This document shows, one piece after another, positions 3,103-18,999 of a stretch of DNA of 32,822 bases. Every line of letters begins with the position of its first letter. Position 1 is the stretch's first letter. The stretch spans positions 1-32,822 of the IMG/VR virus record IMGVR_UViG_3300031672_000649. One strand, written 5' to 3'. Both the position numbers and the translations under genes were made by a program. The notes below the pieces were generated by a model. That model worked only from the letters and a program-made list of their open reading frames with translations, did no database searches and was not told the origin of the DNA. This DNA comes from a virus.

Positions 3103-3109
3103 ACCTATT

Positions 3110-3156: not shown

Positions 3157-3165
3157 AATATTGCT

Positions 3166-3858: not shown

Positions 3859-3883
3859 AGGGTGTTTGTTACAATTAGAATGT

Positions 3884-4039: not shown

Positions 4040-4047
4040 CTATTTAA

Positions 4048-4533
4048 TCAATCAAAGATACTATATTTTTCTTCTGGGAAATCATTTTGATTCACACATG
4101 TTAATACTTTCGCTTTACCCTCTAAAACCTTAGTAATAATAATCCTACTTAATGCTTGAAGTTCTTTTAAACTTGAGATTTCATCAGGAGTGAAAAATTT
4201 CACTTTATCTACCTCAGCTTTTTCAGGAGTTATTTTTTCGCTATCAGCTACAAGTAAGAAAATAAAATATGCACTATTTTCGTTCTTATATATTCTATTT
4301 CTTACAGCAATAAGTCCTCTTAACTCAGTTTTAACACCAGTCTCTTCCAGAATTTCTCTTTTTATGGCATCGTCTATTGTTTCTTTTTGTTCGACAAAAC
4401 CACCAGGAATTGCCCACTCACCAATGTCTTCTCCTCTTACACGTCTGACAAGAAGTACCTTCCCGTTACTTGTTACGACTCCTCCAACTCCACTTGAATA
4501 GCCTTCTTTATATTTTGATTCGTCAAATGCCAT
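4048..4533 (-). CDS. Nudix hydrolase, last gene of the Thoeris operon
   Basis: This is a 161-residue Nudix enzyme, which hydrolyses nucleoside diphosphates linked to another moiety. The Nudix box is complete at about residues 44-66: GG, then FVEQ, KETIDDAIK and REILEETGV, matching GX5EX7REUXEEXGU. Residues 16-36 form the usual first strands. The subfamily resembles ADP-ribose pyrophosphatase/NADH-pyrophosphatase-like members, but substrate cannot be read from the sequence. It starts 7 nt after the second TIR gene and belongs to the same operon. In that setting it could degrade the ADP-ribose-based messenger made by the TIR proteins or clear reaction products; this is inference. A general housekeeping Nudix role remains possible. 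Confidence 0.85.
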   Translation of the reverse strand: MAFDESKYKEGYSSGVGGVVTSNGKVLLVRRVRGEDIGEWAIPGGFVEQKETIDDAIKREILEETGVKTELRGLIAVRNRIYKNENSAYFIFLLVADSEKITPEKAEVDKVKFFTPDEISSLKELQALSRIIITKVLEGKAKVLTCVNQNDFPEEKYSIFD

Positions 4534-4540: not shown

Positions 4541-5101
4541 TTACTTGAAGGGATTTATTAATCCCCATTGTATCTGAGTCTCTCTATTATAATATACTAA
4601 TCCTCCGTCAGGTAGATTGTCTATGTGAAATTGAGAAACGGCATCTGTTAAAGGATTTTGTTTGAACGGTATATGAATTACGCGAGCAGTATTATTATTG
4701 ATTCTATCAGCAAAAGCTTTTGGCCATAAATGGGAAAGTTGAGCTGGTGCTAAAATTGAATCATAGCCAGTATATGCAGTAATTATGGGAATACTGCATT
4801 CATCCACTGCGTATGCTATTTCAAATGGTATCCAATCCGTATCTTGCCAAGTGGTATTACCAATTATAAGAATCATATTTTTTGAACTATTTAAACGAGT
4901 AATCAGGGAGCGTTTAAGCGTTTCTCTTGCGCTTGTATCCCTCACAGAACTTGTTTTTTCGTGACTATTAATGAAATGAAATTCACTTTCTTCTCGCACC
5001 TTCCACATCTTCAAGGTATTGTAGTATTTCATATCTGAGGCAGTGGGATCAGATGTCCCGTTTGCATGAAATGCAATATATGTACCGTTTCTATATGCCA
5101 T
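4541..5101 (-). CDS. thsB: TIR-like ThsB-type protein (second copy) of type II Thoeris
   Basis: This 186-residue protein is a TIR/MTH538-like (DUF1863) domain of the ThsB type. ThsB proteins sense phage infection and turn NAD+ into an ADP-ribose-derived signal. It parallels the first TIR gene: TYIAFHANGT matches TYVAFDGDND, FHFINSHE matches FNFYNAHD, SSVRDTSARETLKRSL matches NSARDTSTEESIKSQL, and MILIIGNTTW precedes the active-site region WIPFEIAYA with Glu94. The catalytic Glu is kept, but the surrounding residues differ from copy one (PWEIELA), so the two may sense different phage proteins, as multiple ThsB copies are thought to do. It begins 3 nt after the TM-Macro gene. Cytosolic; no signal peptide. 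Confidence 0.85.
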   Translation of the reverse strand: MAYRNGTYIAFHANGTSDPTASDMKYYNTLKMWKVREESEFHFINSHEKTSSVRDTSARETLKRSLITRLNSSKNMILIIGNTTWQDTDWIPFEIAYAVDECSIPIITAYTGYDSILAPAQLSHLWPKAFADRINNNTARVIHIPFKQNPLTDAVSQFHIDNLPDGGLVYYNRETQIQWGLINPFK

Positions 5102-5104
5102 ATT

Positions 5105-5956
5105 TTAAAAATTTTGCAAGAAATCTTCTAAGTCTAACATGTTAACCTTTTCTAGATTTTCACTATGAATAACAATTGTGAGCTGTTCAGAAATTTTCTT
5201 TTTTCTGGATGCCAGAATAAATGAAGAGAGAATAAGTTTTATGAGATTTGAATGTGAAGCTTCTCCAATTCTTGCCAGATCAGAGCCCAATACAGCCATT
5301 GCAACTTTCTCACGCTGCCCCTTTAAGCGGATTTCCTCCCACAACATTTCAAGACTTTTTGTAAGCATTGAAATATCAGATTGAGCCTTAAGGTCATTAG
5401 CCATAAGGCTATATGCCGAGCAAAAATACTTTTTCGTACCAACTGACAGCGTTGCAACAGTTCCAATAGGATAGCGCATGTTTTTACCTTGATGTTTTTG
5501 TGTGTCTCGAGTTGGAGAACTGGAACTCAACGCCGTTGCAAGACTCGCATCTAAACTCGTGCGGTCATCACCATAGACATTCGCAAGAAATTGTCCCTGA
5601 ATTGATTTCGCTTTAATTATATTTCCCTTTTCGGTATCAAATGCATCACTCATGCCTATAACAAGGTTTGTTTCTTCTTTAAATAAATCCCCTATTTTTA
5701 TCACAATTTTTGTGTCTGGCTCCACAAGGTAGCGTGAAATCTTCAACTTGGGAAATATTTTTATCAATGCCCAAATTAAAGATAGTAAGCTAATACCAAG
5801 AAGACCTTTGTATCCTAAAGCGAAAACACTTGGGAAAAAAATATCTAAAATTCCAAGTAATATCGCCAATGCTCCAACAGCCTGAAGAAAAGATGAGAAT
5901 AATTTCCTAAGTGTTTTCCAAGAAAAAATAGTTGTTTTGTAAGCTAAGAGATTCAT
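5105..5956 (-). CDS. thsA: TM-Macro effector (ThsA-type, DUF6430-like) of type II Thoeris
   Basis: This 283-residue protein has two transmembrane helices (about 22-41 and 48-67) followed by a cytosolic macro-like domain (about 83-270). Recognisable segments are KIVIKIGDLFKEETNLVIG near 83-101, GKNMRYPIGTVATL, and HSNLIKLILSSFILA with a final strand QLTIVIH. The architecture is that of type II Thoeris ThsA, in which the macro domain binds an ADP-ribose-derived messenger from the TIR proteins and the membrane part kills or arrests the infected cell. The start codon overlaps the stop of the upstream TIR gene by 4 nt (ATGA), and the next TIR gene starts 3 nt downstream. It carries no SIR2 domain, ruling out type I ThsA. 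Confidence 0.85.
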   Translation of the reverse strand: MNLLAYKTTIFSWKTLRKLFSSFLQAVGALAILLGILDIFFPSVFALGYKGLLGISLLSLIWALIKIFPKLKISRYLVEPDTKIVIKIGDLFKEETNLVIGMSDAFDTEKGNIIKAKSIQGQFLANVYGDDRTSLDASLATALSSSSPTRDTQKHQGKNMRYPIGTVATLSVGTKKYFCSAYSLMANDLKAQSDISMLTKSLEMLWEEIRLKGQREKVAMAVLGSDLARIGEASHSNLIKLILSSFILASRKKKISEQLTIVIHSENLEKVNMLDLEDFLQNF

Positions 5957-6456
5957 AAGCCAAGGTCTTCATAAACAGAATCCTTGTAAGAATAGTTTCC
6001 TGATTTTTTGTCTTTGCCTAACAGGTATGAAGTTGGGAAATTATCAAGTGCATATTGGATAATCTTTACATTAAAGGAAACGTGTATTGTATAAATTGTG
6101 CTTCCAATTGCTGTAGGGCATAGAGTTGAGTCGTGGTCACGCTTTTTATTAAGATTCACAACTATAATCGGAATATCTTTTTTCCTCGCAAGCTCTATCT
6201 CCCAAGGAACAAATTTACGTAAATATTTAGTATTATCACCTACCAACAAAATCATTTGTTTTGCATTTGCCATGCGCTCCCGAAGTTGAGATTTAATTGA
6301 TTCCTCAGTACTGGTGTCGCGGGCACTATTCAGATCGTGTGCATTATAGAAGTTGAAATCCATATTTACGTTGGACTTCCATGCAGTCATCAGACGATAT
6401 GCCCACATATCGTTGTCTCCATCAAATGCAACATAAGTTTTATTTTTATATGACAT
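5953..6456 (-). CDS. thsB: TIR-like ThsB-type protein (first copy) of type II Thoeris
   Basis: This 167-residue protein from the ATG at 6456 is a close match to ThsB proteins as I know them: KTYVAFDGDNDMWAYRLM near residues 6-23, NAHDLNSARDTS near 38-49, MILLVGDNTKYLRKF, then VPWEIELARKKDIPI with the catalytic Glu86, and HVSFNVKIIQYALDNFP near the end. It would make the cyclic or histidine-type ADP-ribose messenger that opens the TM-Macro effector. A longer frame to 6477 uses a TTG that lies in the U-tract of a terminator, so the internal ATG is preferred; AAGAG lies about 9 nt before it. It is the first gene of a four-gene operon (TIR, TM-Macro, TIR, Nudix) and is preceded by a structured leader. 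Confidence 0.9.
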   Translation of the reverse strand: MSYKNKTYVAFDGDNDMWAYRLMTAWKSNVNMDFNFYNAHDLNSARDTSTEESIKSQLRERMANAKQMILLVGDNTKYLRKFVPWEIELARKKDIPIIVVNLNKKRDHDSTLCPTAIGSTIYTIHVSFNVKIIQYALDNFPTSYLLGKDKKSGNYSYKDSVYEDLGL

Positions 6457-6475
6457 ATTTTGAATCTCTTTAAAC

Positions 6476-6568
6476 AAAAAAACGAACTCATTATAAGTTC
6501 GCTTGGGTGGCAGTCATTTCTGTCATCCAGGCGCAACTTTGCGCCTTTGAAATTGCTGTCATATTATA
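6476..6568 (-). promoter_or_regulatory. Structured leader with terminator before the Thoeris operon
   Basis: On the minus strand a TATAAT (6568-6563) is followed by three consecutive hairpins. H1 pairs GGCGC with GCGCC (6530-6545). H2 is a long stem with two A-C mismatches (6505-6528). H3 pairs CGAACT with AGTTCG (6483-6501) and runs into seven U residues (6482-6476), only 20 nt before the first TIR start codon. This is either an attenuator or riboswitch-like leader, or a free small RNA of about 80 nt. It could simply terminate the upstream nuclease operon, but the intervening TATAAT argues for a local role. Confidence 0.5.
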
Positions 6569-6625: not shown

Positions 6626-7297
6626 CTAGAAAGGATGAGTAGTATTTGTGGTATATTTGCAGTAAGCACATTCTGGGAAAGAATCAGGAATATCGCCATC
6701 TAATATTTTCTTAGCTTCGAATATCTTATTTTCTACCCAATTATCATCTCCATCATATGGTTGTACTTTAATATCAAAACTAAGTTTTCCATCTGCAAAT
6801 CCATTATCTTTATTTACTCTGCAATATACAAAGTAACCACGATTTTGCACTTTAAATCCATTTTGCCTTAGTATCCATTGATAAATCTCCATTTGTCTTT
6901 TGTAACTGTCGTAAAGCTCTCCTTCTTTCGCGCCAGAGGCTTTATAATCGACTACAATAAGGTTTCCTTCGGAATCAACCCATATATCATCAACTGCTCC
7001 GAAAATAAGGAAATCTGTTGCTTTATGGTGATATTGTATGCCTGTAAAATTGTTTCTCCATTTATCAATATCCTCATGCATGTAGGGAATCGCATCGATT
7101 CCTTCTCTAACTATTAAGTAGTGTGCAGTTCCATTAGCTCGATGGACATCAAATTCTTTTTTAAGGATAAAGTCGACTGCGTTGTTTATGGTGTAAGGAG
7201 CGCCAAATGGACGAGCAATACCTTTTCCGGCATAAAACCAGAAACAACGGGGGCAATCGAAAAGTAATTCTATTTTTGATCGAGACAATTTAATCAT
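6626..7297 (-). CDS. Cas4/RecB-like PD-(D/E)XK nuclease with probable Fe-S cluster
   Basis: This 223-residue protein has the PD-(D/E)XK core of the RecB/Cas4 family: Asp103/104 in GAVDDIW, Asp117 and Lys119 in VVDYKA, and the supporting QxxxY motif (Gln135, Tyr139). Four cysteines bracket the fold, Cys15 and Cys18 in CPRC and Cys210 and Cys213 in CAYC, as in Cas4 and AddB-type iron-sulfur nucleases. It would cut or process DNA ends. There is no CRISPR array or other cas gene here, so it is not a CRISPR Cas4 in context. It lies 47 nt behind the DUF262-HNH gene on the same strand and probably belongs to that modification and restriction operon. Confidence 0.8.
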   Translation of the reverse strand: MIKLSRSKIELLFDCPRCFWFYAGKGIARPFGAPYTINNAVDFILKKEFDVHRANGTAHYLIVREGIDAIPYMHEDIDKWRNNFTGIQYHHKATDFLIFGAVDDIWVDSEGNLIVVDYKASGAKEGELYDSYKRQMEIYQWILRQNGFKVQNRGYFVYCRVNKDNGFADGKLSFDIKVQPYDGDDNWVENKIFEAKKILDGDIPDSFPECAYCKYTTNTTHPF

Positions 7298-7344: not shown

Positions 7345-8436
7345 TTATATTTTACCTTTTCGTCGGTTATCATCTCTACACAGCATCTGGCAGTTCTCGG
7401 CAGTAGTTTTTCCACCATCAATCCAAGGAGTGATATGATCTGCCTCCATCTCCTCTATTTTAAATTTCTTACCACATTTTGAACAAACACCTTTCTGCCG
7501 TTCATAGGCTTCTCGCTTCGTTTTGTCGGTAAACTCTCGAATTGACAAGTATTTTTCCTGTTTAGTCAACATATATGGATAAATACCAGATTTTTTTGTT
7601 ACATCCTCATCTTGCATCAACACTTTGCTTTCAGCTTCCAATTTGTTAGGATCTAGATTTGTATCCTTAAATTCATTGTATAATTTACCCCACTCAACGC
7701 TACTCATTTCTCGGCGATAATTCATGAAAGTTTGCTTCACCCATGCGATCACATTCTGGAAATAGACCCACAATTCATCAGCATTTAAGTCATGCTGGTG
7801 TTTCGCCATATAATCTTCTATTTTGCCGTCATTAATCCACGAAAGCGCCGTTTCTAAATATTCTTGGCGAATTGGCGAGCCGCTAACATATTGTCCACCG
7901 TCATTCGCCAGTAGATACGCTGCGCAACCAGTTTTGCTAAATTTCAATTTAGCGTCACTCAACCATGATCCGGTATAAACGGCATTTCGCAGCTCTTGGT
8001 CGGTTAATTTTTCACCAGCGATATTTATAATCCTAAACCAGTCCAATCGTTCTTTGTCAGTTCCCTCGCAGAAGTAAATCATTAATTCATAATCTAAAAT
8101 TTGGTTTTGTTCTTCGTCGGTTAAGTTATGAAAAAACCGATCGTTTAGTGAAAAATCGCTGTTTACATATTGCCCAATGCTTATGGTGCGTTGCTGACCG
8201 TCCAAAACCTCAAAATTTCCTTGGTCTGTTTTAACCCAGTACATAACATTAAGAGGAAAAGCGTTTTTAATCGTTTCAATTACTGCATCACGCTGTTTAC
8301 CGGTGTAGACAAATTCACGTTGATATTTTGGACGAATGTCAAGTTTACCGCCATAAGCCACCACGCCTTCTTCGGCACTGTCTTTGTAGCCAGAGATTAC
8401 TTCGCGAACTTTGATCCGATGCAAGTCGATTTTCAT
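7345..8436 (-). CDS. DUF262 and HNH endonuclease (GmrS/SspE-like restriction protein)
   Basis: This 363-residue protein has an N-terminal DUF262 (ParB/sulfiredoxin-like NTPase) domain with the two signature motifs PKYQREFVY (about 37-45) and LDGQQRTI (about 78-85). The middle is helical. The C-terminus carries a Cys-supported HNH nuclease: CSKCGKKF, then EADHITPWIDGG with Asp333-His334, and ENCQMLCRDDNRRK. DUF262-nuclease proteins include GmrSD and SspE, which couple NTP binding to cleavage of modified or unmodified phage DNA. It starts 2 nt after the methyltransferase stop, so the two are translationally coupled and likely act as a methylation-guided restriction pair. The cleavage site cannot be predicted. 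Confidence 0.85.
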   Translation of the reverse strand: MKIDLHRIKVREVISGYKDSAEEGVVAYGGKLDIRPKYQREFVYTGKQRDAVIETIKNAFPLNVMYWVKTDQGNFEVLDGQQRTISIGQYVNSDFSLNDRFFHNLTDEEQNQILDYELMIYFCEGTDKERLDWFRIINIAGEKLTDQELRNAVYTGSWLSDAKLKFSKTGCAAYLLANDGGQYVSGSPIRQEYLETALSWINDGKIEDYMAKHQHDLNADELWVYFQNVIAWVKQTFMNYRREMSSVEWGKLYNEFKDTNLDPNKLEAESKVLMQDEDVTKKSGIYPYMLTKQEKYLSIREFTDKTKREAYERQKGVCSKCGKKFKIEEMEADHITPWIDGGKTTAENCQMLCRDDNRRKGKI

Positions 8437-8438
8437 AA

Positions 8439-9602
8439 TTATTTCTCTACTTTCTGGTTTCTTATCACAATTCTTGCATAAAGTATAGACAAAAATCCAT
8501 CTGCATTATCGGCTTTATAGTAAATATCGTCTGGTTTTGTTGATGAAAGCAGCGTCGACCGCGTATTAGCTTTGCTCCCATTTGTGATAGAACCATCCTT
8601 GTTAACTTGTTTTGGGTTTATATACCGCTTTGTTGGTCTCGACTCAAACTCATCTCGCCCAGATGTAATACCCAAAATCTCAAATTGATCGGGATTGTAT
8701 TTGTCAAGAAACGTAATCGGCACACCCATGGGTTCATAATAATCAGAAGGAATATCACTGTACTTATTCACATTTATTGCATCATAATTGTCATATGTCG
8801 GATATTCTTGAGGAGAATATTTCTTATATAAAACTAACTTCTCGTGACGCTTTACGGTATCCAAATTGGTAAACCACACAATACTGCCCATGCTGAAATA
8901 CTTCACCCCATTTTCAATTTTTATTCTAGACTCCGTCGGTATATTGTAATCCATAGGAACCTGAAACCACTTTGTTCCACCGTTATCATAACCTAACCAA
9001 AGCTTATTTTCTTTAATGAACTTGAAGACATCCCTATATGTTATGGCATTTTGGCTACCAAGAATCAAAAACTTTTTATCGTATTCTACGAGCTGTGCGA
9101 CATACTCGCGAAACAGAGAAAATGGCGGGTTAGTCACAACTATATCGGCCTCTTGGAGTAGATCGATGCACTCTTTGCTTCTGAAGTCGCCATTGCCATT
9201 GATAGGTGTGGCAGTGTTCTTGTCATGCTTTAGCAGATACCTCACATCACTTAGATCCACTGCGCCGTCGCCGTCGCCGTCCGGAACCTCATTAATCTCT
9301 ACCTTAAATGGCTGCTTGCCATTAGGTTTTAAACCTTCTACTTCAAATAGTGGCAGCTGCATTCCTGCAATCGGTGATTTAGTATAACTAGTGGTAATGA
9401 GTTTTTTTAATCCGAAGTGATTGAAATTGTTCGCAAAGTATTTAAAAAAATTACTCTCGTACGGGTCGTCGCAGTTGCAAAATATGACCTTACCGCGGAA
9501 TTGGTCCTTGTAGTGTTTTAGCTCATTTTCAATATCAACGAGCTGAGTATAAAACTCATCTAATTTTTGCTGTTTTGCGGTATGTAAATTTTTTTGCGCC
9601 AT
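8439..9602 (-). CDS. EcoRI-type adenine-specific DNA methyltransferase
   Basis: This 387-residue protein matches the EcoRI methylase family. It has FCNCDDPYESNFFKYF near residues 41-56, GDFRSKEC near 138-145, and the N6-adenine catalytic motif NPPF at 158-161 within DIVVTNPPFSLF. A glycine- and aspartate-rich loop (about 107-120) resembles an EF-hand but occurs in family members. It would protect DNA by adenine methylation; specificity for GAATTC is only a family-based guess. The start is supported by GAGGAG about 9 nt upstream of the ATG, and a TATACT (9628-9623) lies just before that. It heads an operon with the DUF262-HNH nuclease and the Cas4-like nuclease. Confidence 0.85.
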   Translation of the reverse strand: MAQKNLHTAKQQKLDEFYTQLVDIENELKHYKDQFRGKVIFCNCDDPYESNFFKYFANNFNHFGLKKLITTSYTKSPIAGMQLPLFEVEGLKPNGKQPFKVEINEVPDGDGDGAVDLSDVRYLLKHDKNTATPINGNGDFRSKECIDLLQEADIVVTNPPFSLFREYVAQLVEYDKKFLILGSQNAITYRDVFKFIKENKLWLGYDNGGTKWFQVPMDYNIPTESRIKIENGVKYFSMGSIVWFTNLDTVKRHEKLVLYKKYSPQEYPTYDNYDAINVNKYSDIPSDYYEPMGVPITFLDKYNPDQFEILGITSGRDEFESRPTKRYINPKQVNKDGSITNGSKANTRSTLLSSTKPDDIYYKADNADGFLSILYARIVIRNQKVEK

Positions 9603-9760: not shown

Positions 9761-10102
9761 TCAAATTGCCTTATTATTATTTTCGGTTAGTGTTTTGCTT
9801 TTATAAGTCTTTATTTGGTCTAGATATGTAATTTTCATGCTGATAGGAGAAACCATTTGAACAAAAGGAAGACAACTTGAATGTTCAGTGAATTCTTTTG
9901 CCGCTTTTTGTGCATTTTCTATTGACTTCCAATAAAAGATATTTATCCATGTGTCGTCTTTGGTCTTTAATAAATCCCTTCTAATAAAGCCAGTTTGTAT
10001 ATTAAAAAATCTTACTTGTGCTTTATTTAACGCTTTTAGAAAAGATTCCTCGCTTATGCCTTCTATAAGTTTAAACTCAATTAGTTCAATAATCATAGTC
10101 AA
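9761..10102 (-). CDS. Ferredoxin-fold protein, antibiotic biosynthesis monooxygenase-like
   Basis: This small protein of 113 residues opens with MIIELIEFKLIEGISEESFLKAL, the beta strand, loop and helix start typical of dimeric alpha-beta barrel (ABM/stress-responsive) proteins. It continues with WINIFYWKSIENAQKAA near 52-68, which is the usual second half, and SCLPFVQMV. Members act as small monooxygenases or stress proteins, often as dimers; no catalytic assignment can be made. It stands alone, divergent from the Xre-type regulator at 10190, and the two may share control through the inverted repeat between them. A second in-frame ATG two codons later is an equal start choice. Confidence 0.6.
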   Translation of the reverse strand: MTMIIELIEFKLIEGISEESFLKALNKAQVRFFNIQTGFIRRDLLKTKDDTWINIFYWKSIENAQKAAKEFTEHSSCLPFVQMVSPISMKITYLDQIKTYKSKTLTENNNKAI

Positions 10103-10161
10103 AACATACCATAAATATAGGAGAAATGCTAGTTATCGTCTGTAGAGTTATTGACTACAAA

Positions 10162-10191
10162 ATACTACCCTAAAATAAATCTTGGTAGTAT
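10162..10191. promoter_or_regulatory. Inverted repeat over the regulator's start codon
   Basis: ATACTACC (10162-10169) and GGTAGTAT (10184-10191) are perfect 8-bp arms around a 14-nt AT-rich spacer. The right arm overlaps the ATG of the HTH gene and a TTGACT lies just upstream at 10151-10156. It is a likely operator for autorepression, or an RNA hairpin hiding the start. Confidence 0.5.
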
Positions 10192-10405
10192 GACACAAGT
10201 AAATTTACGCTCAAAATTTGGAAGAAGACTAAGAGAACTAAGGAAGGCTGCAAAAATGTCTCAAGAAGCATTGGGATTTAAAGCAAATATCCATCGTACT
10301 TATATTGGCTCAATTGAAAGAGGCGAACAAAATGTTTCGATTGATAACATACAAAAGTTAGCTAAAGCGTTAAAAGTCGAGGCTAAGGAACTTTTCAATT
10401 TTTAA
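10190..10405 (+). CDS. Xre/Cro-family HTH regulator (C-protein-like)
   Basis: The ATG at 10190 gives 71 residues, almost all one HTH-XRE domain: FGRRLRELRKAAKMSQEAL, then KANIHRTYIGSIERGEQNVS with the recognition helix, and IQKLAKALKVEAKELF. This size and layout match restriction-modification controller (C) proteins and small phage repressors. A TTG start 39 nt upstream is rejected because it would place the inverted-repeat operator inside the gene. The operator overlapping the ATG suggests autoregulation. It is convergent with the reverse transcriptase gene, the stops overlapping by 4 nt. It might control the nearby methyltransferase operon, the DGR or the prophage; the sequence does not decide. 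Confidence 0.8.
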   Translation: MTQVNLRSKFGRRLRELRKAAKMSQEALGFKANIHRTYIGSIERGEQNVSIDNIQKLAKALKVEAKELFNF

Positions 10406-11454
10406 TTAGTCATCAAATATAAAACCAGATTTTTCAACTCCTTTGATAGTTCATAGGCATCTGCGTGAGAAAGATAACCCAAATATGATTGTAATGCTTG
10501 ATTTAGCGAATCATAGCTTAATTTATTTTCTCGAAATAACTGCACTTTTTTATTGATTTTCCTAAAAATTCTTCTTTTTGTCTTTGTTCTTGGCACAATA
10601 AAATAAGGGAAAATAATATATCCAAGAAAATCTATACCTAAATAGTAATTACTTATGATAATCTTATCGGGATGGAGAGTTAATTTAAGCTCAAGTTTAA
10701 GAAATTTATCGATTTTTGATAATACTTCTTTCAAATATTCTTGATCCTCCGAGAGGAAAACAAAATCATCAGCATAACGCATATAATATTGAATTTTAAG
10801 CTCATTCTTAACAAACTGATCTAAAGGGTTAAGATAGATATTTGCGAAAAACTGAGAGGTCAAATTACCAATAGGCATACCTTTAGGCTCATCTAAATCA
10901 AAAGTATAATCAGACTGAAAGCTACCAACAATTTCACTTAATAGCCACAAAAAATCGTTATCTTTAATTTTTTCAGAAAGAAGTTGTAAAAGGATTTTCT
11001 GGTCAACTGTAGCAAAAAACTTTTTAATATCACATTTAAGTACATATATAGCAGAAGTATTATTCTTGCTTGCTTTACGCAACATTTGAGCAAATTTTTC
11101 AACTGCTTTATGAGTTCCTTTATTTTTTCTACAAGAATAAGAATAGGCATAAAATGTGGGATCAAATACATTTTCAAGGGTGCTACTTACTAAATGATGA
11201 ACTACCCTATCCCGAACCTTTGCCTTTGAAATATGTCTCACTTTTGGATCTCTCACATAGAATGATTTATATCCTCCATGTTTGTAGGTCTTATTTTTTA
11301 ACTCTTCATTCAACAAGAATAAATTATCTTCTAAATATCGACCGAACTCGACTACATCTTTTTTCTTTTTCTTTCCTTGAATAAAACCATCCCATGCTTG
11401 GAAAATAGCCTCAAGTGTGGTAATATCTGAATAAATATTATGCCAGATTTTCAT
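10402..11454 (-). CDS. DGR reverse transcriptase
   Basis: This 350-residue reverse transcriptase would copy the TR RNA with errors at adenines. Motifs in order are RDRVVHHLV with FDPTFYAYSYSCRKNKGTH (motifs 1-2), KCDIKKFFATVD (motif 3/A), PKGMPIGNLTSQFFANIYLNPLD (motif 4/B), YMRYADDFVF with the catalytic YADD (motif 5/C), and FLGYIIF. The SQ in motif 4 is the mark that separates DGR enzymes from group II intron enzymes, which have SP. There is no maturase or endonuclease domain. I chose the ATG at 11454 (MKIWHNIY) over that at 11499, since homologues begin close to this point. The 5' end overlaps the divergent avd gene by 15 nt, and the TR and VR lie on the same strand upstream. Confidence 0.93.
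   Translation of the reverse strand: MKIWHNIYSDITTLEAIFQAWDGFIQGKKKKKDVVEFGRYLEDNLFLLNEELKNKTYKHGGYKSFYVRDPKVRHISKAKVRDRVVHHLVSSTLENVFDPTFYAYSYSCRKNKGTHKAVEKFAQMLRKASKNNTSAIYVLKCDIKKFFATVDQKILLQLLSEKIKDNDFLWLLSEIVGSFQSDYTFDLDEPKGMPIGNLTSQFFANIYLNPLDQFVKNELKIQYYMRYADDFVFLSEDQEYLKEVLSKIDKFLKLELKLTLHPDKIIISNYYLGIDFLGYIIFPYFIVPRTKTKRRIFRKINKKVQLFRENKLSYDSLNQALQSYLGYLSHADAYELSKELKNLVLYLMTN
11398..11426 (+). promoter_or_regulatory. Candidate avd promoter
   Basis: TTGGAA (11398-11403) and TAATAT (11421-11426) are 17 nt apart. Transcription would begin near 11433, leaving a leader of about 7 nt before the avd ATG. It lies inside the antisense reverse transcriptase gene. Confidence 0.4.
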
Positions 11455-11817
11455 GATCTTCAAACAATTAATCGAACTTTTGACTTCCCTATCTTTCAAA
11501 AGACATACGAAACATATAAGCTTTTTTACAGTTATTTAGTCAATTTCCCTAAAAAAGATAAATATACACTTGGACAGCGATGCGAAAACGCACTTCTTGA
11601 TTTTCTCGAAGCAATTACTTTGGCAGGTAGCCTATCAAAAGCTGAAAAACTTCCTATATTACAAAAGGCGAGTGCAAAACTAGATTTAGCAAAAATATTC
11701 ATTCGACTATGTAAAGACTTAAAAATTCTTGATAATAAGAAATACTTAGCACTTGAATCATCTCTCCAAGAAATTGGCAAAATGCTTGGAGGGTGGATTA
11801 AATCCTCATCCACCTAA
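11440..11817 (+). CDS. avd: Avd, four-helix-bundle accessory protein of the DGR
   Basis: Avd binds the reverse transcriptase and the TR RNA as a positively charged pentamer and is needed for mutagenic copying. This 125-residue protein has the family landmarks: FPIFQKTYETYKLFYSYLVNFPKKDKYTLGQR near 16-47, ENALLDFLEAI, KLDLAKIFIRLCKDLKIL, and the closing EIGKMLGGWIKS. The only ATG is at 11440. It is encoded opposite to the reverse transcriptase, TR and target, which is unusual, since most DGR cassettes are co-directional. A bidirectional terminator follows 8 nt after its stop and separates it from the TR. The first 15 nt overlap the reverse transcriptase start. Confidence 0.92.
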   Translation: MPDFHDLQTINRTFDFPIFQKTYETYKLFYSYLVNFPKKDKYTLGQRCENALLDFLEAITLAGSLSKAEKLPILQKASAKLDLAKIFIRLCKDLKILDNKKYLALESSLQEIGKMLGGWIKSSST

Positions 11818-11825
11818 AAATAAGA

Positions 11826-11857
11826 CCTGCTCTTGATAGAGCAGGCCATTTTCTTTT
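11826..11857. terminator. Bidirectional intrinsic terminator between avd and TR
   Basis: CCTGCTC (11826-11832) and GAGCAGG (11839-11845) form a 7-bp stem with a 6-nt loop. T-rich tracts follow on both strands (ATTTTCTTTT on plus; TTATTTTT on minus). It ends avd on the plus strand and the TR transcript on the minus strand, only about 25 nt after the TR. Confidence 0.8.
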
Positions 11858-11870: not shown

Positions 11871-11992
11871 ACTACCGCAGCACGGAAACCGATGTTGTCA
11901 TTCGAGTTGCCAGGATGATCCCAGTTGACGTTCGACGCACCACCGTTGTCAGAGTTACCGACCATCAAACGGTTCGAGTCACCGGACTCCCG
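11871..11992 (-). repeat. DGR template repeat (TR)
   Basis: This 122-bp segment is nearly identical to the 3' end of the AAA+ gene (VR, 12424-12545). The two differ at 14 positions, and at every one the TR has T on the plus strand, so A in the coding sense. Of the 25 such adenines 14 are changed; none of the 97 other positions is. The adenines sit mostly in AAC codons, which cannot mutate to stops by adenine replacement. Read in the target frame the TR gives GNSDNGGASNVNWDHPGNS and then IGFRAAVV. The match ends abruptly at 11871. The TR-spanning frame at 11798-12043 is not treated as a gene. Confidence 0.96.
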
Positions 11993-12410: not shown

Positions 12411-15020
12411 TCAAGAACCCAGAACTACCGCAGCACGGAAACCGATGTAGCCATTCGAGCGGCCAGGATGATCCCAGTCGACGTACGACGCACCACCGCG
12501 GCCAGAGCTACCGACCAACAAACGGCGCGAGTCACCGGACCCCCGATATTCATCTTCTACCCACTCATAAGTATCAGTCTGTCCCCATCCTTCACGATTT
12601 CCTAATAAATTCCATTCAGCAGCTGTCAATAATCTTAAGTCTACTGAAGGATGGTCTATTCCTGCACGATCTAACCCAGCCTGCGTTTTGATATAACCTT
12701 TTGCCGTATTCAGTTCCTTTTTTGCTTTAGTCCATGATACATTAAAACGATCATTAAGTCCCATTGCCGTTGTTAAGGCAGAGCTTTGATATTTTTGTCC
12801 ATAGCTTGGTTTTGGCATAGTTTCAACAGCCATCCATTGACCAGGTAGATTGGGGAAATTAACATTATTTGCCTTCACTTGCTCCCAAAACCATTCTCGT
12901 AAGTTTCTAGTATTTGAGTGATCAGCTTTTTCTCGATCTGATAATGATTCATAGGGTTTCCAATTAGGGTAGAGGGCATTTAGTTCTTGTAAGTATTCTC
13001 CAACACTCTTAGTACCTAAACTGCTTTGTAGTAAATCTAGGTTAGGAACGAAACGCAATTCCATACCAAGAACCTCTAATCTCCTCTGTATTTCAGGGGT
13101 AACATAGCCAGGCAAAGGCGCTATATCCACTTGAGCACCTAATACATCTTGCCAGGCTCTTTGCTCGGCAATTTGTATTTCCGACATTGCCTCACGCCTT
13201 CTTTCTCTGGCAGGAGTAGAACTCACTCCCATTGGATTTTCATTACTTAGTACTATCTCTCCTGCCATTTGTGAAGGAAGGATATAACCTTTTTCTTGAT
13301 CTTCAATCGTCACATGTACATCAGGTGAAGCATTTGTAGTTAAACCATAAGCGTGAAGAACTTTTTGCAATGTTTTTCGTTCTTCCGGAGTACTCAATGT
13401 TTTTGGATCTTGAATAAACTCACCAATCTTTGCTGCCATATATTCTTCAAATTTTTGTCCTCTGGCAGAAGCTAATTCCCACTCACTAAAGAGTTTAAAC
13501 AGTGTTCCTGGATCAAGAAAGCTTGTGTTCAACGTAGTCTCAGTGTTACCTTGTGGATCTATGCCAAGTAAGCTTTTCATTTCTGTTGAGAAGCCATCAA
13601 AGTCACGATTATGGATTCTTTGCATCATTTCGGCTGCTTTAGTCAATCTCTCAACATATTCAGCTTCAGACACGCTGAGTTTTAATACTCCGCTTTCTTC
13701 AATTAACATTCCACGAATAATATCATTCATTTCTTGAGCAGGCATATAACTTACTTCTATTCCTGTCAGTTCGCGCAAAATTGCAGGATCCATATCTTCA
13801 CGCTGCTTAGTTCTTTCGTCTTTAGGATTTCCAGTAAAAAGTTCAATAAAGTTAGGAGTAATTTCATGCACCTCTCCATTAAAACCAGGTATATGCACTT
13901 TCTCTCCTGGTTTTGCACCCATAAGATATTTCATAGAGAGCTGGGTACGCGTCGAACCACCTGTAAATTCTTCATGCACTAACCCAACTTGCTTTTCTAA
14001 GGCTCTTGGATATGGACCAGGTTTCGTACCACTTTGCACACGACCTTCTTCATCTTCATATAATTCTCTGTATCCAAAAATATCACGAGGTGTTGTGCCT
14101 TCATGCCAGGGTACAATTTCATATCCCCCTGTTAAATCATTCAAAGCATAAAAAGCAAGCTGTGTTTTTCCAGTACCCGTTGAGCCAACTAGAAAAATTT
14201 TCTTACCCGAAAGTGCTTCACGAGTTATACGATCTATAAGTTGTTCACGAGAGGGGGTCATGACAAATCCCTTTTCTTTAAGTTCTTTTTTATACTCTAA
14301 TAACTTTTGTGTTTCTAGATAACCAACGGTTGAGGGAGAGGCGGTTTCTTCAATTCCTCTTTTTTGTAACTCCAACTCATCTAATTTTCCTTGAAAAAGA
14401 CCAATTTGATCAGCAGAGCTTTGAGTAAGTTTTCCAGCCTGTTGTTTACTGTCTAAGTATCTTCTATAAATTGCCTGTCTAAGCTTAGCAGTAACACGAT
14501 CAATATCTCTAACTTCTCGCATAGGACGACGTGCGACTTGGTATTGAGAAAATTCTGAATCGAATTCTTGTTCAAATAGCTCTCTTACCTGAGGAAATGC
14601 TAACAGATCAGACAATCTCTGTCTTACTAACTCTTGATGTTCTGAATTACCATTTAGGGGGTTCTCTCCATCTGTATCCTCTTGAGAGACAACAGTATGA
14701 TCAGAACCCGGCTTTTGATGAGGTTTTAATATAACATCCAACTGCCTTTCTAAACTTTGCAGTCCTTCACCTTCACCGAGTTTTATATCAGGCACACTTC
14801 GTTCAGGCGCACGATGATATTCCTCAAGATACCCTAGCACTGCAAAACATTTGCTTTGTACTTCTGGTTGAGCTAATTGTGTAGGATTATCAGGCCTAGA
14901 CTCGTTTGGCATAAACCTTCGAAACGAAAGCGGTGCCAACCGCGAACGAGCTTGAGCAATTCGCTGTGGTGAAAATGATTCTACATTTGCTGCATCTTCT
15001 GCCATATATCTTTCTATCAT
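12411..15020 (-). CDS. DGR target: MoxR-like AAA+ ATPase with C-terminal FGE/C-type-lectin domain
   Basis: This 869-residue protein has a charged N-terminal region (1-250), an AAA+ ATPase domain of MoxR/dynein-like type (about 255-560) and a C-terminal formylglycine-enzyme-like C-type lectin fold (about 690-869). The Walker A is GSTGTGKT at 279-286, the Walker B is LVHEEF at 347-352, and sensor 1 is likely Asn398 in FTGNP. The lectin part shows RLLTAAEWNLLGNREGWG and ends in DWDHPGRSNGYIGFRAAVV, with the last 43 residues covering the VR. ATP-driven remodelling is the likely activity, and the lectin tip the binder of varied ligands. It starts 16 nt after the vWA gene, so the two form an operon. 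A second ATG at 15005 is an alternative start; neither has a strong Shine-Dalgarno. Confidence 0.88.
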   Translation of the reverse strand: MIERYMAEDAANVESFSPQRIAQARSRLAPLSFRRFMPNESRPDNPTQLAQPEVQSKCFAVLGYLEEYHRAPERSVPDIKLGEGEGLQSLERQLDVILKPHQKPGSDHTVVSQEDTDGENPLNGNSEHQELVRQRLSDLLAFPQVRELFEQEFDSEFSQYQVARRPMREVRDIDRVTAKLRQAIYRRYLDSKQQAGKLTQSSADQIGLFQGKLDELELQKRGIEETASPSTVGYLETQKLLEYKKELKEKGFVMTPSREQLIDRITREALSGKKIFLVGSTGTGKTQLAFYALNDLTGGYEIVPWHEGTTPRDIFGYRELYEDEEGRVQSGTKPGPYPRALEKQVGLVHEEFTGGSTRTQLSMKYLMGAKPGEKVHIPGFNGEVHEITPNFIELFTGNPKDERTKQREDMDPAILRELTGIEVSYMPAQEMNDIIRGMLIEESGVLKLSVSEAEYVERLTKAAEMMQRIHNRDFDGFSTEMKSLLGIDPQGNTETTLNTSFLDPGTLFKLFSEWELASARGQKFEEYMAAKIGEFIQDPKTLSTPEERKTLQKVLHAYGLTTNASPDVHVTIEDQEKGYILPSQMAGEIVLSNENPMGVSSTPARERRREAMSEIQIAEQRAWQDVLGAQVDIAPLPGYVTPEIQRRLEVLGMELRFVPNLDLLQSSLGTKSVGEYLQELNALYPNWKPYESLSDREKADHSNTRNLREWFWEQVKANNVNFPNLPGQWMAVETMPKPSYGQKYQSSALTTAMGLNDRFNVSWTKAKKELNTAKGYIKTQAGLDRAGIDHPSVDLRLLTAAEWNLLGNREGWGQTDTYEWVEDEYRGSGDSRRLLVGSSGRGGASYVDWDHPGRSNGYIGFRAAVVLGS
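12424..12545 (-). repeat. DGR variable repeat (VR)
   Basis: This is the 122-bp copy of the TR at the 3' end of the AAA+ gene. Eleven codons differ, for example AAC to CGC, TAC, GAC or AGC, GAC to GGC, and ATG to TTG, all through TR adenines. The segment from 12424 to 12448 is the first 25 identical bases and is the likely initiation-of-mutagenic-homing end, being GC-rich. The stop codon is 11 nt beyond it. Confidence 0.96.
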
Positions 15021-15036
15021 TAGTATACACGAGTTG

Positions 15037-17691
15037 TTATAATTTTGATAAGTGTTTCATCAATAACTTATGTCTTACAAGTGTCGCTTGTCTAACATCA
15101 TCAATCACAACTGCTGCATCCGGATCAGCTGGATCATTGCAAACTACCCTAATATCTTGAGCTGCACTACCAAATCCAATACCTTGAACAATAATTCCAA
15201 CCTCCCTTAACTCTTTAATTACAGCAATACATCCAGCCTGATCTGTCACATCTCCATCTGAAACAACAGTCAAAACCTTTGAGTATCCTCCTTCACGAAT
15301 TTTTTGCAAAGTCTTTGGATCGAGCGAATCTTTATACTGTTTTAATGACTCACGTAATCCACTTGAAGACTGGTTGTGAGCTTTTAAAACCCCGTCAAGG
15401 GAAACCAAGCCCTTTTCTGTTATTGTATCAGTCGATTCCTGAGCCACGCTTGTCCAATCTCCAAACACCGCAACTCTTGAACGGACACTTAAAGGCGTAG
15501 TCATCTGTTTTTTATATCGTGAATGTCCCAATCGATCATTGAGATTCCGAATATTATACTCAGAACTTAATACCATTTTTCGCTGTTCATCGGCGGGCTG
15601 ACCACTCATAGAGCCAGAAACATCTAAAATAAAGTCGTCATCAAAGACTGAGACTTCTATTCGTTCTCTCGGTTTTTGTTGGATCCGTTGGTAACCTAAT
15701 GGATCGTCGTCATGTGAACGAACATCTATGTATGCAGTTACTGGATCATCTAAAAACTCTCCTTCACTTTGTCTAACCGGCCCTTTATATACTTCATGGG
15801 GAATCTCTCGACGCTTATAAAGGAGTTCAAATAAATCACGCCATTCCTGGTATATTGTACTTTGCCTGTGACGAATAGAAGCTTCTGCCGGAACAGGGGT
15901 TTTATTTATACCATTAATCCACGATTCTAATTGATGCCATTCCCGCCACGCTACACCTTTTTCCTGCTCGAACTGTTGAGCGGCAAGTTGTTCCGGAGTT
16001 GGGGAAGGAGGAGGAGTTTCATCTTGCTTACTTAATTCATCATATAAACGTTCTATCTCTTCCTGGCTTAGTTCTGGTTGCTCAACTATTGATTCACCAA
16101 AATCACCATCCAGAGATTGCGATTCTCCATCTTGATCTCCAGAATCATCTTTTGCTTTTGGTGGAGTAGCATCCATACCACGATGTGTCCAAGCTTGTTT
16201 ATCCGGATCCCATACTTCTCCCCAAGCGTGCTTATCTAAGCCTGGTGCTTCTACTACTGCAAATTCAAATCGAGGGTCTTTGCTATTAATATATGGTCCG
16301 GTTGCAATACGAGAGGCAATCCCAAGCCTTTTGCATAATTCATCTCGAAAAATGTTTGCCCAATAACAATGAGCAACACCAGTTTCAGCAATTTTAGTCC
16401 ATAGATCATTTCCTGCGGATAAATATAAAGAGTCAATTTGCCCTATTTCTCCTTCATCTTGGGGATAACGCAGTTTTTTGCGAACATAGATAGCAATTTC
16501 TCTTGCTTTTTGCACATCACTCATCCAAGTTTGACTAGAAAGATCATCCAGAACTGTTTGTGTATCAGGATCAAGGTTTCCTCCTACAGGCACCAAATCA
16601 CGTTCTGTAGGCGGCATATTTAACTGATTTGATGGTGATTCTGTGAGAACAAAGTCAAATGAAAATGTTGCTGCATCAGATGTTTGTCCTTGCGATCTTG
16701 GGTCAACAGATATAATTCCTAAATCATCACGCATAAACTGAAGTGCATTTACTGGAGTTAGTGTAGAGACGATTGGTAAAGCATTATAGGGTAATTTAAC
16801 TAATGCTTCTTTTCCAGACTGCATACTTCCTTCATATGTTCTTTTTGTTTTCCATATAGACTCATCATCCGGTGCGTCATCAACCGACCAAGTTCCCTTT
16901 ATGCCTGCCTCTTTGACAATTTGCCTTGTAGCTGGATCATAACGACAAACTTGTTCCCGATAATAACCTCCATAAAAAGGTGTCACGCGAACAGCAATAT
17001 CAGATTCTTGAAGCGGCTCTTTACTTCCTGCAACATCTTGAGTTTGTGAAGGTCGATATTCAAACTGTTGTGATTGACCTGTTTGACGATCAGCTTCAGC
17101 AAGTTCTTCAATAAGAGGTTTAAGATGAGTATCAAAATTTTGTCCATCAAATTTTAAATAGCGGCCTGAGGCAATATAATCAACTAAACTACGACCTTTA
17201 GGTTGAGGAATGCGCTGTATTGCTTGATGCACAGTATCCGACATCTGATCAGGATATTTACCCGTTAAAACATATGTATCAATCGCCCACTGAAATTCTT
17301 GCCCAAGTGTTTGATTTTGAGGTGCTACTGGTTGGTCACGAAGAATATTCGGATTACTTTCTCTTAGTCTTGCTAGACCTTGCCAACGAAGAATTGGTTC
17401 ACTTGCTTCTGGATATGTTCGAGTAGTTTCTAATAAAAGATTTGCGTCAGTACGTATTGCTTGAGTAAGACCAAGATGCCCACCTACTTGTCGAAGAGTT
17501 GAAATTCTGGCTTGGTCAGCGTTGGGAAATAAAGCAGTATTGACTCTGAGTTCAGAATGATCACCAGACCATACCATTCTTGCACCCGTTTTTCTAGTTA
17601 TTACAGCTATATCACCACATAATTCTCTTGGTTCTCCTAAAGGAGTTGCAATAGGTTCAGGTGTATTTCCAACGAGGTCTCTCTCATTCAT
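15037..17691 (-). CDS. vWA protein with transglutaminase-like domain, partner of the DGR target
   Basis: This 884-residue protein has a transglutaminase/papain-like domain (about 385-510) with a plausible triad: Cys442 in GVAHCYW, His488 in KHAWGEVW and Asp495. An acidic, Pro/Gln-rich linker (about 515-570) follows. A von Willebrand A domain (about 683-870) carries a complete MIDAS start DVSGSMS (Asp690, Ser692, Ser694) and TVVSDGD later. MoxR AAA+ and vWA proteins are an established pair, in which the vWA acts as an adaptor; the transglutaminase would supply a peptidase or crosslinking activity. The start at 17691 is set by GGAGG 8 nt upstream of ATGAATGAG; earlier ATGs at 17733 and 17706 are less likely. 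A TATAAT at 17725-17720 leaves a leader of about 20 nt, unlike the leaderless phage operons. Confidence 0.85.
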   Translation of the reverse strand: MNERDLVGNTPEPIATPLGEPRELCGDIAVITRKTGARMVWSGDHSELRVNTALFPNADQARISTLRQVGGHLGLTQAIRTDANLLLETTRTYPEASEPILRWQGLARLRESNPNILRDQPVAPQNQTLGQEFQWAIDTYVLTGKYPDQMSDTVHQAIQRIPQPKGRSLVDYIASGRYLKFDGQNFDTHLKPLIEELAEADRQTGQSQQFEYRPSQTQDVAGSKEPLQESDIAVRVTPFYGGYYREQVCRYDPATRQIVKEAGIKGTWSVDDAPDDESIWKTKRTYEGSMQSGKEALVKLPYNALPIVSTLTPVNALQFMRDDLGIISVDPRSQGQTSDAATFSFDFVLTESPSNQLNMPPTERDLVPVGGNLDPDTQTVLDDLSSQTWMSDVQKAREIAIYVRKKLRYPQDEGEIGQIDSLYLSAGNDLWTKIAETGVAHCYWANIFRDELCKRLGIASRIATGPYINSKDPRFEFAVVEAPGLDKHAWGEVWDPDKQAWTHRGMDATPPKAKDDSGDQDGESQSLDGDFGESIVEQPELSQEEIERLYDELSKQDETPPPSPTPEQLAAQQFEQEKGVAWREWHQLESWINGINKTPVPAEASIRHRQSTIYQEWRDLFELLYKRREIPHEVYKGPVRQSEGEFLDDPVTAYIDVRSHDDDPLGYQRIQQKPRERIEVSVFDDDFILDVSGSMSGQPADEQRKMVLSSEYNIRNLNDRLGHSRYKKQMTTPLSVRSRVAVFGDWTSVAQESTDTITEKGLVSLDGVLKAHNQSSSGLRESLKQYKDSLDPKTLQKIREGGYSKVLTVVSDGDVTDQAGCIAVIKELREVGIIVQGIGFGSAAQDIRVVCNDPADPDAAVVIDDVRQATLVRHKLLMKHLSKL

Positions 17692-17756: not shown

Positions 17757-17966
17757 TTAAACTTGAGTTTGAGTATTGGATTGTGAAGCTTGATTATTCT
17801 TGTACTTTAAAAATGTCCTACTTCCAACATAACTCCCAACGAGAAAAATAAGAGCGACAACTTTATCTTGAGAAAATGAGCAATTTTGCTGCACAAAAGA
17901 AACTAAAATTGTTCCAATACCAGCAATGACTGCGTAAAATTCTGTTGTTTTATATCCAGGCGTCAT
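17757..17966 (-). CDS. Holin-like small membrane protein
   Basis: This protein of 69 residues starts with MTPGYKTTEFYAVIAGIGTI. A hydrophobic helix spans about residues 9-24 and a second about 36-51, joined by a polar NCSFSQDK loop; a basic and Gln/Ser-rich tail follows. The size, two helices and position after the endolysin gene fit a phage holin that lets the endolysin reach the wall. The start at 17966 is fixed by GGGGGTG about 7 nt upstream, which overlaps the endolysin stop codon, indicating translational coupling. The longer in-frame start at 18005 lies inside the endolysin gene and is rejected. Confidence 0.65.
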   Translation of the reverse strand: MTPGYKTTEFYAVIAGIGTILVSFVQQNCSFSQDKVVALIFLVGSYVGSRTFLKYKNNQASQSNTQTQV

Positions 17967-17970
17967 ATCT

Positions 17971-18999
17971 TCACCCCCTTTTAAAAAAACTTTTAATCCA
18001 GTCAAGAAGGCTATTTGTTTGGGCTTCTGCTACGGTTTGCTGATTCACTTGTGGCGGTTGGGCTTGAAGTTGTTTCACTTGATCCTGTAATTGCTTAATT
18101 GTTGTTTGCATTGCAGTAACTGCAGTATGCATATCGTCATCTGTCGCTTGAGGAGTAAGACCAAGCAAATTTTTTACAAAGCTTACATCACCGATTGCTT
18201 GGTCACGTTGATGCTGTGCTGTTATAGAGTCATCCACAGCTTGTATATCTTCATCTTTAACCTTTTGAATTGCAGACGCCATATCAGAAATTTGACCTTG
18301 AAGTTTTTGAACATCCTGCTGGAACTGTGTGTTTGCACTGGTTAAGTCACCTACTTTCTTAATGACATCATCAACTGTTGTGTAACCTGCTGCATTAAAA
18401 GCATCATACTTTGTCGCTTTGTCTACAAGTTGCGGAAATACATTTGCATTGACAGCAACGGTTGCACCAACTGGACTGCCTTTATACACAACAAATTTCT
18501 GGATTGTTTGCGCTGGGTTACTTCCGTAATGTAAGGAAAAGTCATCATCAGTACCATACCACGGGTCATAAATTTTAAATGTAGTTCCGTCATAATCATG
18601 CAGACAAACAAAATGCGTTTGAATTCCATCATTTGGATCGTGGTCAAAATCAAGCTCAATAATGACTGCGAGCGTGTCATCAGCTAAAAGCTGTTTTAGT
18701 AAATTAAGGTCTGCCGGATTATTACTGTAGTCATATGCTTGTTGAAACAAAATATCCGGAAATACTTTTGATAAATCGCCATCATTATTTATTAAATCTC
18801 CATTTGCATAGAGCTGTTTGTTTGTAAAAATATCATCTAACGCATTTGGGGTAATTTGGTGTCCAAAATACCCAGCAGTCATGGCAAATGAGGTAATGTA
18901 GCAACCATACTGTCCTATTGTTGCACCGTCAACTGTTCCTAGTCTTTGAGATGCCCATTGAGGATCCCTTTGAGAATAAATTTGTGGATAGGTTCTCAT
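17971..18999 (-). CDS. Endolysin: C39-like cysteine peptidase with coiled-coil tail
   Basis: This 342-residue protein begins with a C39-like (papain-fold) peptidase, about residues 5-170. The landmarks are YSQRDPQWASQRLG, then IGQYGCYITSFAM with Cys33 as nucleophile, THFVCLHDYDG with His129, and IYDPWYG with Asp145. Such domains cleave peptides, and in phages they serve as endolysins acting on peptidoglycan cross-bridges. Residues 200-330 form long coiled-coil helices (for example LQGQISDMASAIQKVKDE) and the end DWIKSFFKRG is amphipathic and basic, possibly for membrane or wall binding. It is preceded by a leaderless late promoter, the ATG being 5 nt after the -10 box. The holin follows. Confidence 0.75.
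   Translation of the reverse strand: MRTYPQIYSQRDPQWASQRLGTVDGATIGQYGCYITSFAMTAGYFGHQITPNALDDIFTNKQLYANGDLINNDGDLSKVFPDILFQQAYDYSNNPADLNLLKQLLADDTLAVIIELDFDHDPNDGIQTHFVCLHDYDGTTFKIYDPWYGTDDDFSLHYGSNPAQTIQKFVVYKGSPVGATVAVNANVFPQLVDKATKYDAFNAAGYTTVDDVIKKVGDLTSANTQFQQDVQKLQGQISDMASAIQKVKDEDIQAVDDSITAQHQRDQAIGDVSFVKNLLGLTPQATDDDMHTAVTAMQTTIKQLQDQVKQLQAQPPQVNQQTVAEAQTNSLLDWIKSFFKRG

Follow-up and report, generated by a model that had tools for sequence, protein, structure and literature searches.

A retroelement-diversified AAA+ ATPase and its transglutaminase-vWA partner in a virus and in Patescibacteria genomes: a candidate intracellular recognition protease

Why would a virus carry a diversity-generating retroelement (DGR) that is directed at an ATPase? 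The question is raised by IMG/VR virus record IMGVR_UViG_3300031672_000649, which we analyzed over its whole length of 32,822 bases (the window). The window carries a complete DGR, made up of a reverse transcriptase (RT), the accessory protein Avd, a template repeat (TR), and a variable repeat (VR). The VR lies at the end of a gene for an AAA+ ATPase (the AAA protein), and the adjacent gene encodes a protein with a transglutaminase (TGase)-like domain and a vWA domain (the TGase-vWA protein). We refer to these two genes and the DGR as the cassette, and to other loci and genomes by L and G numbers. The gene set recurs in bacterial chromosomes, which suggests a machine for recognition inside the cell, perhaps an immune one. 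We give about even chances to the reading that it encodes an AAA+/vWA protease that works inside the cell and has a recognition arm diversified by the retroelement, probably a conflict system, in which the immune role is our inference.

The diversified ATPase and its partner

The features of the cassette in the window are as follows; phrog_ identifiers denote families matched in scans of the window proteins.

10402 to 11454, minus strand: DGR reverse transcriptase with a YADD motif (phrog_1423, 1.2e-110)
11440 to 11817, plus strand: Avd accessory protein (Pfam bAvd, 69.2 bits, cut-off 40; phrog_3206)
11824 to 11847, minus strand: terminator-like hairpin with a T tract, just downstream of the TR (pattern match only)
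11871 to 11987, minus strand: TR, 117 bp, downstream of the AAA gene
12411 to 15020, minus strand: AAA protein, 869 residues, with an N-terminal region, an AAA_5 domain, and a C-terminal domain of about 260 residues ending in the VR
12424 to 12540, minus strand: VR, 117 bp, about residues 827 to 865 of the AAA protein
14163 to 14186, minus strand: Walker A motif GSTGTGKT, residues 279 to 286 of the AAA protein
15037 to 17691, minus strand: TGase-vWA protein, 884 residues, with Transglut_core and a C-terminal vWA domain, 16 bp upstream of the AAA gene
15610 to 15624, minus strand: metal ion-dependent adhesion site (MIDAS) motif DVSGS, residues 690 to 694, in the vWA domain
16171 to 16368, minus strand: Cys442 (16366 to 16368), His488 (16228 to 16230), and Asp507 (16171 to 16173) of the TGase-like domain

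The TR and VR differ at 13 positions over 117 bp, and all 13 mismatches fall on TR adenines (24 of the 117 bases are A; hypergeometric P = 4e-11). Most of them are in AAC codons, and 10 amino acids are changed. Therefore, judged from one sequence record, the DGR is real in its anatomy, with RT and Avd genes beside an adenine-specific TR/VR pair, and the AAA protein is its target, as the original prediction had proposed. The open reading frame (ORF) of the RT opens at a TTG at 11499, and we set the start at 11454 by homology. The avd gene lies inside the cassette on the plus strand, opposite to the other cassette genes.

By its Pfam match to AAA_5 (31.9 bits, cut-off 22; residues 275 to 416), the AAA protein is a MoxR/midasin-type ATPase. 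Six more copies were scanned (L003, L138, L142, L144, L145, and L149), and all scored above the AAA_5 cut-off. The Walker A pattern GxxxxGK[ST] is kept in all 15 aligned AAA proteins, and Walker B reads EE in the window copy and DE in the 14 others. Midasin was the best PDB profile match. The best Foldseek matches of the predicted structure were NorQ and CbbQ2 (E values of 4e-5 and 2e-3), in a low-confidence model, and the VIA-align rows, all with Z below 8, were mostly dynein and NorQ. The Foldseek matches count as support only because Pfam agrees with them. Structure prediction had been proposed as a check on both proteins; it recovered the AAA core in this qualified way, and the TGase-vWA model was unusable. 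The C-terminal tip had no Pfam match and no credible PDB profile match, and AAA matches fill the fold-search lists. The lectin-type fold originally assigned to the tip was thus not confirmed, and would follow from the position of the VR and from DGR logic. The PHROG profile scan gave no tail-family match for the AAA protein.

In the partner, both Pfam families expected from the original prediction were above cut-off (Transglut_core, 34.6 bits, cut-off 23; VWA, 24.8 bits, cut-off 23.8). By Pfam, a MoxR-clade AAA+ and a MIDAS vWA are thus encoded together, in adjacent genes. GGAGG precedes the ATG at 17691, and the longest ORF starts at 17733; the earlier numbering of Cys442 is right for the start at 17691. 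All 16 distinct TGase proteins retain the Cys-His-Asp triad, which is invariant in the 12 of alignment A7. MIDAS, as DxSxS or DxTxS, is kept in all 16 TGase-vWA proteins. The partner therefore has the features of the transglutaminase-like superfamily, from which protease or crosslinking activity is predicted.

In the vWA partners that lack a TGase domain, an HExxH motif occupies a single position of the alignment (4 of 4: phage L003, L147, L150, and L151). The background is 5 of 217 other distinct long ORFs, or 9 of 221 overall, four of the nine being the vWA partners. This count covers vWA proteins with an intact N terminus and excludes L157 (cut) and cut duplicates of TGase-vWA proteins. HExxH was found by pattern, and Pfam gives no peptidase in L003, L147, or L150. 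Two unrelated peptidase signatures share one slot, which argues for proteolysis as the predicted output of the vWA chain and agrees with the peptidase-type partner first proposed.

We then compared the variable unit across 12 DGR loci with this AAA gene (the window, L003, L040, L056, L059, L138, L139, L142 to L145, and L149). The VR was on the AAA gene in 10 of the 12, with 161 of 167 TR mismatches at A in a scan that favors A mismatches. A target-independent TR/VR test placed 13/13 mismatches at A in the window, 12/13 in L003, and 11/11 in L145. Seven of the 12 loci have free variable units, alone or alongside a fused one. These free units share homology with the C-terminal domain fused to the AAA proteins, and they match the same TR. 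L144 (7704 to 12488) has three VR-bearing targets, one AAA-fused and two free, that match a single TR. Fused or free, the variable unit therefore behaves as an exchangeable recognition arm. The AAA proteins of L142 and L145 end differently from the other copies, so more than one arm type seems to be in use.

Conservation and linkage of the cassette

An RT profile found 388 relatives in genome contigs, and 80 were kept. Sorted manually by name, 66 of these are from Patescibacteria (candidate phyla radiation, CPR) lineages, 13 are named only "bacterium," and 1 is named "archaeon." The window RT is nearest to Patescibacteria RTs. Among 120 sources, the full cassette was found, besides the window, at L040 and at L056 (Candidatus Peribacteria). 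The L040 proteins are 66% and 56% identical to the two window proteins.

A TGase-vWA profile matched 16 of 379 Patescibacteria genomes at 17 places, whose flanks we annotated with profiles grown from the window. We left out G277 (vWA cut), G261, G080, and G252 (no TGase domain), and G186:C1 (no vWA match). Twelve places with both domains remained (one of them, G265, with its N terminus cut), and excluding G001 and G002, which had been found through the RT, gave 10 RT-independent places. An AAA gene lies beside the TGase-vWA gene in 9 of the 10, with one diversified gene between them at L144 and L149. A DGR RT lies within 6 kb in 7 of the 10, where about 0.1 was expected. Of the three places without an RT, only G312 is a real negative, because the G136 and G273 contigs stop near the gene. 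RT matches number 227 in 120 of the 379 genomes, some being halves of one RT. The chance of an RT within 10 kb is thus about 1.3% per place for an assumed 0.9-Mb genome, which gives P = 9e-12, and P = 2e-8 when the RT density of RT-bearing genomes is used. By these comparisons the TGase-vWA/AAA pair is a conserved unit, and the conserved neighborhood that the original prediction asked for is present. The gene is present as well, at the end of a contig, in the L042 genome (G006, L152), which is not among the 16 profile-matched genomes. Conversely, a TGase-vWA partner accompanies only a small fraction of Patescibacteria DGRs.

We placed the cassette as a label on a quick RT tree that included L003, L059, and L147 under the label and excluded L040 and two RT pieces of L142, which are interrupted. 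The label changed 9 times, and at least 5 changes are forced by supported branches. Cassette RTs are scattered on the tree, so the pair seems to have acquired DGRs on several occasions. The TGase-vWA tree showed no clustering of DGR linkage (5 changes; 338 of 500 shuffles gave a count as low), and some of the DGR-less rows are cut contigs. At L040 and L142, the TGase-vWA and AAA genes stay open despite broken RT frames.

The cassette is also present on cellular contigs, where most copies were found, and it is therefore not phage-specific. In scans that rest on a few short peptide patterns, a single AAA protein found no close relatives in phages, plasmids, or viral_contigs, and the TGase-vWA protein found none in phages or viral_contigs. 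A two-row AAA profile found only L019 in viral_contigs in such a pattern-limited scan, which is the same contig as L003. For a tail protein from the window, a single match (25% identity) was found among 192 Patescibacteria genomes; the host is therefore assigned from the relatives of the cassette and RT. On that basis, the host of the virus is most likely an ultra-small member of the Patescibacteria.

Genomic setting of the cassette

Outside the cassette, the window contains the following features.

1 to 1023: integrase, starting at base 1 of the record
4541 to 6477, minus strand: Thoeris genes, two ThsB-TIR flanking ThsA-Macro (defense context)
7345 to 9602, minus strand: type II restriction-modification (R-M) pair, a GmrSD_N/HNH nuclease (7345 to 8436) and an EcoRI-type methylase (8439 to 9602)
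10151 to 10405, plus strand: small helix-turn-helix (HTH) ORF beyond the RT, XRE-like by eye, a possible cassette regulator
17757 to 18999, minus strand: C39-family peptidase (17971 to 18999), endolysin-like, and a small hydrophobic ORF, upstream of the TGase-vWA gene

The right half of the window has siphovirus-type genes (head-tail connectors, tail terminator, tape measure, Dit, and fiber). The cassette sits between the Thoeris and R-M genes on one side and the lysis genes on the other, with tail genes beyond the lysis side; the predicted placement between defense and lysis genes was correct. In the direction of transcription, the minus strand reads C39 peptidase, small hydrophobic ORF, TGase-vWA, AAA, TR, hairpin, and RT. 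The small hydrophobic ORF is holin-like by size and hydrophobicity only. It lies 65 bp upstream of the TGase-vWA gene, and the gap has no terminator-like site on that strand. A plus-strand terminator-like site (11826 to 11845, pattern match only) overlaps the hairpin downstream of the TR. Promoter-like sites in the window were fewer than in shuffles (11 versus 22), and therefore we claim no promoter.

Homologs of the HTH ORF lie beside the RT, by tblastn, in L040, L003, and L041 at 69 to 73% identity and in L142 at 43%. Another small ORF (9761 to 10102) adjoins the RT. It has no Pfam match; in phage L003 and L041 (Candidatus Falkowbacteria), the RT likewise adjoins a homolog of about 50% identity. 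A Cas4-like PD-(D/E)XK nuclease (6626 to 7297) lies between the Thoeris and R-M genes. The Thoeris locus itself is carried by a virus whose cassette relatives point to Patescibacteria.

Defense genes also occur near the cassette elsewhere. L056 has a type II cyclic oligonucleotide-based antiphage signaling system (CBASS) set (SAVED effector, cyclase, E1-E2, and JAB), a type III R-M system, and, by eye, a recombinase-like gene. L144 has a methylase and a ResIII helicase, L138 has AbiEii, and L040 has HEPN and nucleotidyltransferase genes (by eye). L142 has a TraG/TrwB-like gene. L003 is an SU10-like phage whose cassette is flanked by the portal and major capsid genes. Immediately upstream of its vWA/HExxH gene, within the cluster of head genes, is a gene (2931 to 4493) for a TPR-HEPN (LA2681-like) protein. 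As a control, we compared 65 flanking proteins from 9 cassette loci with 65 proteins of cassette-less RT loci, which were hand-picked from 230 and lean to larger ORFs. The flanking proteins were taken from 81 listed, omitting 12 of L003 and 4 overlapping ORFs. They matched 96 PADLOC families at 1e-12, versus 11 for the controls; 25 of the 96 were displayed, and most are CBASS and R-M families of one locus, L056. This enrichment of defense genes around the cassette is suggestive only.

Proposed function and comparison with known systems

The maxima of Kyte-Doolittle hydrophobicity over 19 residues were 0.87 and 1.23 for the two window chains, which indicates no membrane segment, and inspection by eye gave no signal peptide. 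The diversified tip therefore most likely acts inside the cell. This likely location, the diversification of the arm, the peptidase-type output, and the defense neighbors at some loci are what lead us to the immune reading. We propose that the AAA_5 motor would form a ring and work with the vWA chain as in the NorQ-NorD or CbbQ-CbbO pairs. The vWA chain would bear a TGase-fold peptidase with a Cys-His-Asp triad. Ligand selection would fall to the variable domain at the C terminus of the AAA protein, which RT and Avd would rewrite from the TR. Ligand binding would then trigger ATP-driven remodeling that un-gates or feeds the peptidase, and the activated peptidase would cleave its target, be it the intruder or the cell's own proteins; crosslinking is less likely. 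In Patescibacteria and in this temperate phage, the most likely job would be the recognition of varying intracellular intruder proteins, such as those of competing phages and plasmids. In the phage, the cassette may be expressed as the last part of the late operon, or it may serve the lysogen. We hold more tentatively, at somewhat below even chances, that this is a heritable, anticipatory immune protease acting inside the cells of Patescibacteria and carried by their phages too, with an AAA+ ring, an arm repertoire (fused or free) written from one TR, and two interchangeable peptidase classes on the vWA chain.

The pair could instead be a housekeeping-type AAA+/vWA machine for remodeling or assembly, like NorQ-NorD, CbbQ-CbbO, RavA-ViaA, or a virion assembly factor, with a DGR-tuned adaptor and a peptidase that matures substrates. 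The best folds of the AAA model, NorQ and CbbQ2, point this way. So do the pairs in Patescibacteria with no DGR in the stretch examined (L141, and L150 and L151 with HExxH-vWA), the position of the L040 cassette between ftsZ and ftsA (by eye), and an archaeal virus MoxR-vWA pair that is listed in tail assembly (PMC7159879, section 8). However, repeated coupling to mutagenic retroelements is hard to reconcile with a fixed substrate, and the distribution is patchy, with matches in 16 of 379 genomes. We consider such a machine unlikely. A late-expressed protease of variable specificity that serves the phage, in host take-over or counter-defense, is somewhat less likely again. It would suit the window, where the cassette follows the lysis genes on the same strand across a short terminator-free gap, and L003, where it lies among head genes. 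Most copies, however, are on cellular contigs, and a second viral TGase-vWA did not turn up in the pattern-limited viral scans. We regard the classical use of a DGR as improbable here, that is, a receptor- or partner-binding tip on the virion or cell surface for phage tropism or for contact between epibiont Patescibacteria and their hosts. The prototype DGR target is a tail fiber protein (PMC7159879), and clade 5F CPR/DPANN DGRs have been suggested to mediate host-cell interactions (PMC10907252). In the window, however, the tip is fused to an AAA+ motor with no tail-family match, neither chain has a membrane segment or, by eye, a signal peptide, and the cassette is present on cellular contigs.

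Several observations weigh against an intracellular conflict protease with a diversified arm. Besides the pairs without a DGR and the ftsZ-ftsA position, L148 has a TGase-like protein without an AAA protein, and the AAA proteins of L143 and L149 have no VR, which is borne there by separate proteins of 260 to 300 residues. The RT is interrupted in L040 (10001 to 11038) and L142 (14169 to 15157), so the DGRs there may be decayed. Loci with the cassette cluster only mildly on the RT tree (in 26 of 500 shuffles the number of changes was as low), and the A4 query, built from RT-found loci and the window, may favor DGR-linked subfamilies. Two of 21 cassette proteins slightly exceed a Kyte-Doolittle value of 1.6, late in the TGase-vWA chain (L142, 1.63; L145, 1.76). 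The structure models are poor (mean pLDDT confidence scores of 50.7 for AAA and 37.3 for TGase-vWA; Foldseek TM-scores to NorQ at most 0.34). The window, L056, and L144 have clear known defense genes, and the case is weaker at L138 and L040; none was recognized at L139, L142, L143, L145, or L149, where flanks were partly annotated one by one. Neither the AAA nor the TGase-vWA protein matches any PADLOC 2023 model (0 families at 0.01).

Many DGRs are found in Patescibacteria, with targets that have had no assigned role. For part of these targets, the conserved peptidase-vWA partner offers a testable biochemical output, and it points to retroelement-driven recognition inside the cell. Carriage by a phage beside Thoeris and R-M genes makes the immune reading directly testable.

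Among known machines, NorQ-NorD, CbbQ-CbbO, and midasin share the combination of an AAA_5 motor with a MIDAS vWA, and they are the best fold or profile matches of the window AAA protein. PDB titles among the fold matches likewise pair NorQ with the NorD vWA. To our knowledge, these machines have no diversified arm and no TGase-type peptidase. A second comparison is with the VMAP and bpMoxR ternary systems. Pfam includes VMAP models, and no VMAP match was found in scans of both proteins (at 0.1) and 18 other window ORFs (at 0.01). The match to bpMoxR (PF20030) was 12.5 bits, far below the cut-off of 27. Judged by its domains, the window unit resembles these systems, but it has neither a VMAP match nor a bpMoxR match above cut-off.

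Ternary conflict systems were defined by Kaur et al. (2020; PMC7159879), whose section 8 describes the vWA coupling of this AAA clade. As described there and by Dore et al. (2024; PMC10907252), VMAP systems also join a MoxR-clade ATPase, a vWA protein, and a peptidase-type component, often with a DGR-linked, varying C-type lectin (CLec). In those systems, however, the vWA chain mostly bears the variable domain and MoxR is separate, whereas in the window the variable domain is on the AAA chain and a single partner chain combines the peptidase with the vWA domain. The window unit also differs in having an RT nearest to Patescibacteria RTs and in being phage-borne as well. TGase-like peptidases are rare in the account of Kaur et al. 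and occur on VMAP proteins, and metallopeptidases are rare among the domains joined to vWA. Dore et al. describe DGR-diversified MoxR ternary systems in multicellular bacteria. They also report, citing their reference 20 (Paul et al. 2017), that the commonest CPR DGR target is a CLec fused to an AAA ATPase, a target with the same host group and fusion architecture as ours. Clade-2 CPR DGR targets are usually without recognizable domains (PMC8144416). Both CPR DGR targets of the AAA-CLec type and MoxR-vWA systems linked to a DGR have thus been published before. The relevant part of Dore et al. does not mention a peptidase-vWA partner, free units, or phage carriage beside Thoeris, which the original paper may have. 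In the titles and abstracts brought up by searches of the open-access DGR, MoxR-vWA, and CPR literature (subscription papers lay outside these searches), we found no peptidase-vWA partner, diversified motor chain, or phage carriage. The DGR of Bordetella phage BPP-1 follows the same logic of RT, Avd, TR, and VR with adenine-specific changes. Its target, however, is the tip of a tail fiber (PMC7159879), whereas in the window it is an ATPase.

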